Of a stretch of DNA of 55,680 nt, positions 49,196 to 51,007 are shown one piece after another (the first letter of the stretch is position 1; each line of letters opens with the position of its first letter). The DNA is from Psychromonas ossibalaenae ATCC BAA-1528. Its GTDB lineage: Bacteria > Pseudomonadota > Gammaproteobacteria > Enterobacterales > Psychromonadaceae. The stretch covers positions 1-55,680 of the forward strand of contig NZ_KB906999.1 of the NCBI RefSeq assembly GCF_000381745.1, given 5' to 3'. A program made the position numbers and the translations under genes. The notes beneath the pieces are model-generated. The model was given only the letters and a program-made list of their open reading frames with translations, was not told the origin of the DNA and did no database searches.

Positions 49196-49223
49196 TTGAC
49201 ATACATCAAAACAACTTTATACT
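49196..49223 (+). promoter_or_regulatory. Sigma70-type promoter for mgtE
   Basis: TTGACA (49196-49201), 16-bp spacer, TATACT (49218-49223). Perfect -35 and one mismatch in -10, predicting transcription from about 49230. Confidence 0.65.
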
Positions 49224-49529
49224 TTCCAAAAAATTAACTAGGCAAATAAAACTAATGGGTACAGATAGTTGCAGGAAAATCTGCTTTAAAAACAGGAGGA
49301 CTCACTGCTAATCTGAAACATTATTTAGATTTATCCAGTCTCCCGGCTTACAGCTTTCCTTATTACAATCTAACACCATAGTAAAAAACGGCCAGCCGCT
49401 GTTAAACGTCTGAATCAACAATATTCAGCAGCCCCTTAGTCATATTTTTTAATACCAGTGAGAATAACTATCTGCTCATTCAGACAGACTGCTATTTGCA
49501 CCCTAACCATTCATACGTAGGAGAGCTTT

Positions 49530-49586
49530 ATGCTTAACGATATCCCTCCGAGTAGGGAAAACAGCGCTGGAGGATACTTATGGTAA
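49530..49586 (+). CDS. Candidate mgtE leader peptide, 18 aa
   Basis: ATG 49530, with AGGAG 6 bases before, reads MLNDIPPSRENSAGGYLW and stops at TAA 49584. Adjacent prolines at codons 6-7 follow an Asp, a pattern recalling the E. coli MgtL leader peptide that controls mgtA through ribosome destabilisation at low Mg2+. The ribosome-site GGAG (49520-49523) can pair with CTCC (49546-49549) in the ORF; the same CTCC can pair instead with GGAGGATA (49569-49576). The stop lies in the first arm of the terminator-like hairpin. Function by analogy only. Confidence 0.65.
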   Translation: MLNDIPPSRENSAGGYLW

Positions 49587-49611
49587 AATTTAAGCTTTAA
49601 ATTTTACCTTT
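49582..49611 (+). terminator. Attenuator-like hairpin in the mgtE leader
   Basis: GGTAAAATTTAA / TTAAATTTTACC, a perfect 12-bp stem with loop GCT, followed by TTTGTATTT. It overlaps the leader peptide's stop codon, so translation and hairpin formation must compete. The stem is AT-rich, so termination would be partial. Confidence 0.65.
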
Positions 49612-49726
49612 GTATTTAATAAAATTCTGATTGTTCAATCAGCAGACACTGTTAATCCCCCCTGTCGTTGTCCCTTTCAAAAATCCAACATCATATATTT
49701 AAATCCTATTTTTGGGAGGACTAACC

Positions 49727-51007
49727 ATGTCCACAATTGCAGCTATTACACCAAATTACATTAACCCGCACTGTCCTGCTGATTTTGATTACAGAAGCCA
49801 TGAACAGCACAACTTTGATACAGACAACAAAAAACGACAATTACTTACTTTTATAAAAAGTTTAACTTCTGAACAGCTTAGTGAATGGCTTTCTGATATG
49901 TCACTGCAGCAGTGCTTTTACATCTATAACCCCCTGATTGAACCGGACAGAGCCTATTTAAGAAAGCATATGCCCGTCTGGTTAATGAGCGATATCATAA
50001 AGCTGTCTCTTGAGCAGAATCCGGTTATTTCCGTTATATCCAACAGCCCGTTTTTATCTTTAAGCGCAGAAACTTCTGTGTCACAAGCAATTGAACAGAT
50101 TAAATTACTGGATCCAAGCATTGATAACAAAGTACTGTTTATTGTTGATAAACAAGGTCTGTACTGCGCATTACTGGAATTACATCAGCTATTTGCACAT
50201 GATGCGGATACCCTGCTTAAAGATATCGGCGAGCCCGCTTCCGGTCACTATGCCGGTTTAGATCAAGAGCAGGCGGTAACATTATTACAGCAAAGCTCAT
50301 TAGACTGCCTGGCTATTGTGGACGGCAGAGGCCGCCCCGCTGGTTTATTAGGCCCGAAACAGGCTATGCAGGTAATGCGCCAGGAGCAGACTGAAGATGT
50401 AGAGCTTTTAATGGGGATTCAAAGCGCTGCTGATCCGGCCCCCTATCTCGATACCCCGGTATTAACGCATGTTAGAAAACGTATTTACTGGATCGCCGGG
50501 CTCGCGGCTGTGGGTATTTTATCGGGTATGGTTATTCAAAGTTATGAGGATGCTATCACTGCACTGGTTATTTTAGCATTGTATATGCCGATGGTGGCAG
50601 ATACGGGCGGCAACGCAGGAAGTCAGGCGGCCACTGTAATTATACGTTCAATGGCGCTAGGAGAGCTTAATATAAAACACTGCTTTGCTGTAATATGGAA
50701 AGAGCTGCGCATATCAATTTTTATCGGAGTGGCTTTAGCAGGTGTCTCATATTTAAAAATTCAATTTCTGTCCTTCGGCGTTGAGCTGCCGGACAATTTG
50801 TCTCTAAATATGATAGGTTTTGCGATTGCTCTGGCACTGTTCATTCAAGTTGTCACCTCAACCGTTGTAGGAGCTACACTGCCGCTGCTGGCAAAATTCT
50901 GTAAGCAGGATCCGGCAGTTGTCGCAAGCCCGGCAATCACCACTATCGTTGACTTGAGTGGTCTGCTGATCTATTTCTATGTGACTTCGCTGCTGCTGTT
51001 TATATAA
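49727..51007 (+). CDS. mgtE: MgtE-family magnesium transporter
   Basis: 426 residues from the ATG at 49727, with GGGAGGACTAACC before it. The order is a degenerate N-terminal helical domain (about 1-110), two CBS-like segments (about 115-230, KVLFIVDKQGLYCALLELHQ and LDCLAIVDGRGRPAGLLGPK) and five TMs (about 250-426). The channel signatures LYMPMVADTGGNAGSQAATV (about 286-305) and DPAVVASPAITTIVDLSGLL (about 396-415) are intact. It imports Mg2+ across the inner membrane. A long leader with a peptide and hairpin precedes it. Terminator at 51022. Confidence 0.93.
   Translation: MSTIAAITPNYINPHCPADFDYRSHEQHNFDTDNKKRQLLTFIKSLTSEQLSEWLSDMSLQQCFYIYNPLIEPDRAYLRKHMPVWLMSDIIKLSLEQNPVISVISNSPFLSLSAETSVSQAIEQIKLLDPSIDNKVLFIVDKQGLYCALLELHQLFAHDADTLLKDIGEPASGHYAGLDQEQAVTLLQQSSLDCLAIVDGRGRPAGLLGPKQAMQVMRQEQTEDVELLMGIQSAADPAPYLDTPVLTHVRKRIYWIAGLAAVGILSGMVIQSYEDAITALVILALYMPMVADTGGNAGSQAATVIIRSMALGELNIKHCFAVIWKELRISIFIGVALAGVSYLKIQFLSFGVELPDNLSLNMIGFAIALALFIQVVTSTVVGATLPLLAKFCKQDPAVVASPAITTIVDLSGLLIYFYVTSLLLFI

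Follow-up and report, generated by a model that had tools for sequence, protein, structure and literature searches.

An upstream open reading frame with the conserved core [DE]-x-P-P-S (uORF2) precedes mgtE, the gene for a divergent magnesium channel, in the window analyzed here, a 55,680-nucleotide stretch of DNA from Psychromonas ossibalaenae ATCC BAA-1528. The peptide core is conserved and a hairpin covaries in two groups of leaders; translation, Mg2+ sensing, ribosome drop-off, the involvement of Rho and the direction of the response we infer. We consider it reasonably probable that uORF2 is a ribosome-abortion Mg2+ sensor of the MgtL/MgtP/MgtQ type that turns mgtE on at low Mg2+. By analogy with those systems, the leader probably extends the known Mg2+ leader-peptide type to another transporter family; ribosome-read Mg2+ sensing would then reach mgtE, in four families, beyond the mgtA, mgtB and corA genes of enterics. 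Searches of the open-access PMC literature turned up no description of a leader peptide ahead of mgtE for these bacteria.

The mgtE leader in the window

An earlier note on this DNA had described a strong promoter, a leader of about 495 nt and an 18-codon ORF with an AGGAG ribosome site and DIPP as codons 4–7, and all of these are present as described (Table 1); the leader measures ~497 nt up to the mgtE ATG if, as assumed from the −10 box, transcription starts near 49230. The statement that no M-box was visible also holds, as a Rfam scan of the leader returned zero families at gathering score, and the five chance matches at E up to 10 included no M-box.

Table 1. Features of the mgtE leader and gene, in window coordinates
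Feature	Position	Strand	Basis
Sigma-70-type promoter, TTGACA-16-TATACT	49196..49223	+	11/12 consensus positions, promoter scan
uORF1, MGTDSCRKICFKNRRTHC then stop; acidic-start leader ORF	49255..49311	+	Relatives MDTDSCRE.., MESDHCRRAYI, MDSDSLKG..; 13/16 long-MgtE leaders
Shine-Dalgarno (SD) TAGGAG of uORF2	49518..49523	+	Read from sequence
uORF2, MLNDIPPSRENSAGGYLW then stop; leader peptide, core [DE]-x-P-P-S	49530..49586	+	Conservation across loci
CCTCC in PP codons, complementary to mgtE SD	49545..49549	+	RNAalifold consensus, 8 f1 and f6 leaders
Hairpin P2, 5' arm (CAGCG..GGAGGAT), uORF2 codons after PPS	49562..49575	+	Alignment, predicted folds
AT-rich palindrome, insertion of the window genome; provides the uORF2 stop there	49582..49608	+	Comparison of loci
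Hairpin P2, 3' arm (ATCCCCCCTGTCGTTG), within C-rich, G-poor stretch (putatively rut-like)	49655..49670	+	Alignment, C/G count
SD GGGAGGA of mgtE	49714..49720	+	Sequence, consensus fold
mgtE, divergent 426-aa magnesium channel	49727..51007	+	Pfam PF01769; TIGR00400

The product of mgtE matches the Pfam MgtE family (PF01769) with an E-value of 9.3e-33 and shares 81% identity with its counterpart from Psychromonas aquimarina. Its divergence is apparent from the full-length NCBIfam model TIGR00400, against which it scores 197.3 bits, below the cut-off of 232.75. The window genome (G000) encodes a second, ordinary MgtE (G000:C14), and no MgtA-type Mg2+ ATPase exceeded the curated cut-off anywhere in that genome.

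Ahead of uORF2 lies a further short ORF, uORF1, which begins MGTDSC in the window and MDTDSC in P. aquimarina. In 13 of the 16 leaders of long MgtEs from families f1, f2 and f6, a promoter of the TTGAC(A/T) type is followed by an ORF starting M[DEG][ST]D, which begins 30–32 nt past the end of the −10 box. This set is partly preselected because the filter required an SD word and an acidic residue near the start, but the fixed spacing was not preselected. The same filter found no uORF1 in loci L039, L064 and L063; in the first two, the promoter ends 50 and 132 nt before uORF2, respectively.

Conservation of the [DE]-x-P-P-S peptide

An order-wide search of 394 genomes with an MgtE alignment retrieved matches in 59 genomes at E <= 1e-50, and searches within families, overlapping with this set, retrieved 8 of 11 genomes in f2 and 12 of 116 in f6. 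Of the 59 order-wide matches, 53 were examined, and an ORF with the PPS core was present in 35 and absent in 18 (including L068, L083 and L091). The f6 search added L061–L066, which carry the ORF, and L067, L069 and L070, which do not. Presence follows the MgtE score: above 205 bits, mgtE is preceded in all 41 examined loci, which come from four families within a single order, by an ORF that begins with ATG and fits M.{0,4}[DE]-x-P-P-S, and below 191 bits the ORF was found in none of 21 examined loci from the same searches. L072 (201.7 bits) lacks it, and L071 (228.6 bits) stands outside the 41 because it lies at a contig end without upstream DNA. When the search was widened to 369 genomes of the class, 11 matched, including that of the window; among 11 other loci, the ORF was found in none of the eight with upstream DNA.

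In the 41 loci, uORF2 starts 151–317 nt upstream of the mgtE start used, is preceded by an SD word in 36 by a strict and in 40 by a loose definition, and encodes 28 distinct whole peptides, whose core falls within the first nine codons. Examples before long MgtEs, besides that of the window, are MLNDIPPSRETV (genome G010), MEIDIPPSLLPFQKCDV (f2) and MENEIPPSRENSDGGKVW (f6); the peptides MNNTDHPPSLNGEE (f21) and MKTTDYPPSRKGEK (f6) precede short MgtEs. Codon usage was tabulated for the first 36 loci, in which four core peptides occur in 14 nucleotide versions. The acidic codon is GAC in 27, GAT in seven and GAA in two, the residue after it varies (His 18, Ile 15, Tyr 3), the first Pro codon is CCT in 31 and CCC in five, and the second is CCT in 27, CCG in eight and CCC in one. 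Differences in the D/E, P and P codons are thus confined to third positions, and the Ser codon is AGT in 36 of 36. Conservation of peptide codons across relatives, the comparison by which the earlier note proposed to check for an MgtL-like translated leader peptide, therefore strongly supports that proposal at the codon level.

The regular expression ^M.{0,4}[DE].PPS was written after leaders had been seen, and its background was counted over 6775 short ATG ORFs (832 kb strand-bases). Of the 37 matches, 35 were mgtE leaders, one was the window copy of one of these and one was unrelated. This count omits the repeat fetches L003, L004, L005, L031, L032 and L047; as L005 and L047 are one place, that place is left out entirely. 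Two gene-blind nucleotide scans covered 295 genomes. Each of the 16 matches to the pattern ATGN9GAYYAYCCNCCNAGT lies beside mgtE, and ATGN6GANATHCCNCCNAGT gave 33, of which 11 lie at mgtE, 19 encode MSDDIPPS and three are others; with the patterns reversed as controls, the scans returned 1 and 0 matches, respectively. Judged from sequence comparison, uORF2 is real and is conserved to a greater extent than chance would give.

Twenty of the tabulated leaders precede short MgtEs, which span 281–287 aa in the five measured (L047, L056, L058, L065 and L066). The single one tested, from L047, aligns only to positions 265–449 of the full-length model, corresponding to the membrane part. Extrapolated from this case, the short MgtEs would lack what the full-length model has as its cytosolic part, and control of expression may replace control of gating in them.

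RNA pairings and the readings they allow

Pairings were sought in alignments that included one of 18 of the 20 short-MgtE leaders (L050 and L060 were dropped, as their mgtE start could not be aligned) and one of eight leaders from f1 and f6, with L064 left out as short. For the short-MgtE leaders, RNAalifold predicted, among other helices, PL, which joins the D-H-P codons CGACCATC to GATGGTCG shortly before the mgtE SD, and PA, which joins the last uORF codons GGAGAAGAAT to ATTCTTTTCC. Taken together, PA and PL have 96.3% of cells paired and a covariation of 0.149, against 0.030–0.092 for slid partners; none of 500 shuffles reached the pairing or the covariation, and 463 of 500 reached the number of pair types. 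A helix P1 between uORF codons 3–5 and bases past the stop is weaker, its covariation being reached by 19 of 500 shuffles. In the f1 and f6 leaders, hairpin P2 pairs the codons after PPS with a downstream arm (88.5% of cells; covariation 0.286 against 0.068–0.185 for slid partners, reached by 17 of 500 shuffles). Three of its pairs are changed on both sides, a number reached by 60 of 500 shuffles and also obtained with a slide of −1, and its pair types are reached by 142 of 500. The shuffle tests ignore relatedness, and the structures were derived from the alignments on which they were tested.

In the f1 and f6 leaders and in the short-MgtE leaders, a conserved predicted hairpin thus has the last uORF codons as its left arm, as in mgtP. 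In L039, one nucleotide is missing directly behind the core; this deletion alters the end of the peptide, which there reads MLNDIPPSRETV, and spares P2, which suggests that the head is kept as peptide and the tail as RNA. Tested against shuffles, the tail and downstream sequence were predicted to form a single RNA duplex at p <= 0.05 in 7 of 8 f1 and f6 leaders, 6 of 20 short-MgtE leaders and 1 of 7 f2 leaders. Of the compensatory changes that had been suggested as a check, a new covarying hairpin was thus obtained in two groups and not in f2, where P2 is unsupported. Fold z-scores were −2.50 for the window leader and −0.51 for that of P. aquimarina, and for segments −1.94 (L039), −3.37 (L041), −0.88 (L065) and +0.15 (L064).

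Beyond the uORF, base composition shifts to 20.7% C and 13.9% G (35 leaders, L064 being omitted as short), compared with 18.6% and 17.6% upstream of it (36 leaders). The skew of C over G is strong in the 15 long-MgtE leaders counted (G 3–10%) and slight in the short-MgtE leaders. Rho loading sites are expected to have C over G.

In the reading we prefer, uORF2 would be a translated, cis-acting leader peptide whose [DE]-x-P-P-S core slows or ejects the ribosome at low Mg2+, an effect that could arise at D-x-P-P from intrinsic ribosome destabilization together with the prolyl pair. Compared with EPDP, a single acidic residue followed by PP seems the weaker destabilizer. On its left side, a hairpin (P2, or PA in the short-MgtE leaders) would be built from the codons after PPS, with its partner arm lying downstream. 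At high Mg2+, ribosomes would complete uORF2 and hold this hairpin open, exposing C-rich RNA to Rho, and the PP codons would re-pair with the mgtE ribosome-binding region, so that mgtE is off. At low Mg2+, abortion at D-x-P-P would let the hairpin form while ribosomes cover the anti-RBS codons, leaving mgtE on. In mgtP-type leaders, stem-loop C goes with expression. The direction proposed here, in which abortion inside the uORF favors mgtE, is suggested by the precedents of mgtQ and MgtL. At mgtQ, according to passages of PMC8092293, acidic codons abort translation and thereby free the mgtB RBS. For MgtL, passages of PMC11282234 and PMC11552253 describe a low-Mg2+ drop-off at EPDP that reshapes the RNA, making the Rho site inaccessible, so that mgtA is transcribed.

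Pairing of the D-x-P-P codons with the mgtE ribosome-binding region would also fit a purely translational switch resembling mgtQ, in which a lingering ribosome frees that region without Rho, and we regard this as possible, if on the unlikely side. The helix PL is whole in 16 of the 18 aligned short-MgtE leaders, and the other two (L065 and L066) retain 4–5 of its 8 pairs, two of them through changes on both sides; in the f1 and f6 consensus fold, CCUCC of the PP codons pairs with GGAGG of the mgtE SD in 8 of 8 leaders; and mgtQ, as portrayed in passages of PMC8092293, offers a precedent. However, CCUCC fits any good SD, and its pairing never varies in f1 and f6, so there is no covariation there; two of the seven f2 leaders have CCCCC, a mismatch to the mgtE SD, and alignment failed for L050 and L060. 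A translational switch also leaves the C-rich stretch of the long-MgtE leaders and the hairpin unexplained.

The two pairings further raise the tentative and somewhat doubtful idea of a dual-coded sensor, in which the same dozen nucleotides would encode D-x-P-P and be antisense to the mgtE ribosome-binding region, an aborting ribosome thereby unlocking mgtE. The two leader groups have different predicted pairings (CCUCC with the SD in one, CGACCAUC with GAUGGUCG shortly before the SD in the other) and, were the idea correct, would have arrived at such a sensor by different routes.

We consider it unlikely that the signal is charged tRNA-Pro or EF-P activity instead of Mg2+, with the PP codons stalling ribosomes when either is short as in mgtP of the mgtCBR leader. 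PP is present in all 36 tabulated uORFs, as the regular expression requires, and in all 41 loci, and mgtP is described, in passages of PMC3641672, as responding to proline via conserved Pro codons. Yet an acidic residue two codons ahead of PP is equally constant and would be unneeded for proline sensing alone, most of the uORFs have two Pro codons only, and the gene is a Mg2+ channel. It is very improbable that the conserved block is an RNA element in which the ORF is incidental: the window and P. aquimarina do differ by a single base from the uORF2 SD through GGAGGATA, and the Ser codon is invariant, but across families the peptide core is kept via synonymous changes in differing surroundings, always after an ATG.

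The least probable reading is that of an intrinsic attenuator, proposed in the earlier note, in which the palindrome overlapping the uORF2 stop ends transcription: it is near-perfect and forms in the predicted window fold, but it is AT-rich, has no T-run, is not among the terminator-scan calls and falls within a 32-nt stretch missing from P. aquimarina. It occurs once in the window genome, and all four copies seen across 181 fetched loci come from that genome, a confinement on which the terminator idea fails; intrinsic-terminator attenuators are recognized here by a conserved, G+C-rich hairpin with a T-run. Alternative CTCC pairings had been put forward with it. Pairing of CTCC with the SD of uORF2 itself appears in the predicted folds of the window and P. 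aquimarina, but the arrangement is patchy, both words occurring in 24 of 41 leaders and being absent from f2 and most f6 long-MgtE leaders, and GGAGGATA is restricted to the window and P. aquimarina among the 36 tabulated leaders. Inspection by eye for a helix between the C-rich arm and the mgtE SD revealed no apparent conservation.

Known Mg2+ leaders and other acid-proline ORFs

The mgtE leader combines an acid-plus-Pro head as in MgtL, tail codons that serve as a hairpin arm as in mgtP and a head that is antisense to the RBS region as in mgtQ. With MgtL, which precedes mgtA in E. coli and Salmonella (passages of PMC11282234 and PMC11552253), it shares a short ORF that has its own ribosome site and lies in a leader preceding a gene for a Mg2+ transporter, and early conserved acidic and Pro residues, [DE]-x-P-P occurring in 41 of 41 examined loci; it differs in the gene, in the RNA pairings and in the core, [DE]-x-P-P-S taking the place of an EPDP motif that uORF2 lacks, and translation of uORF2 is itself putative. 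The 41 leaders form a comparative set that yields this minimal core. The Salmonella mgtCBR leader likewise has two short ORFs in tandem, mgtM and mgtP, but mgtM is noted for adenines whereas uORF1 has an acidic start, the peptides are unrelated and the gene here is mgtE. Salmonella mgtQ is also an acid/Pro uORF with codons in a structure that controls the RBS of a transporter gene (passages of PMC8092293), but it is 8 aa long, intergenic, has a single Pro and precedes mgtB. The M-box before mgtE-type loci in mycobacteria, as presented in part of PMC12810186, similarly exerts RNA-level Mg2+ control; no M-box match occurs in the window leader.

Loci with ordinary-type MgtEs lack the PPS ORF in 15 of 15 cases, and it is likewise absent from L067–L070, L083 and L091. 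Among 25 loci (L006–L030), the regular expression matched in one, L017, 310 nt upstream and without an SD word; L006 and L009 have different acid-proline uORFs. In a further 15 loci, from other MgtE lineages, the uORF reads MNPDPDSR or MTPDPDSR in seven cases, MDPDSRNF in two and MDPIPSPRWDE, MDVPSSRPCLP and MNADADSC in one each, with none seen in three (L083, L091 and L096); the uORFs of L067–L070 read MDPS(T/P)SSP(S/G)WD. Many of these ORFs have no SD word by the list used. Leader peptides of this kind may accordingly be widespread upstream of mgtE within the order. Those before the ordinary-type mgtE genes of f10 and g28 (L084–L093, L067–L070 and L082) are nearer in flavor to the EPDP of MgtL. 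The mgtE frame of L094 has one internal TGA, and its uORF reads MNADADSC where relatives have MNPDPDSR.

A separate likeness concerns CorC, a Mg2+ homeostasis protein, which in genus g6 starts MSDDIPPS and so has the core of the mgtE leader peptide (L109–L116, for example L114:1501-2376). Eight of the 19 MSDDIPPS matches were fetched, and all eight are CorC-like by translation; the one tested was named CorC by NCBIfam. Of 30 CorC relatives read, only the g6 one starts MSDDIPPS and most start MS[DE]D.. otherwise, so the likeness may be due to chance; it may instead reflect a Mg2+-responsive start of opposite sign.
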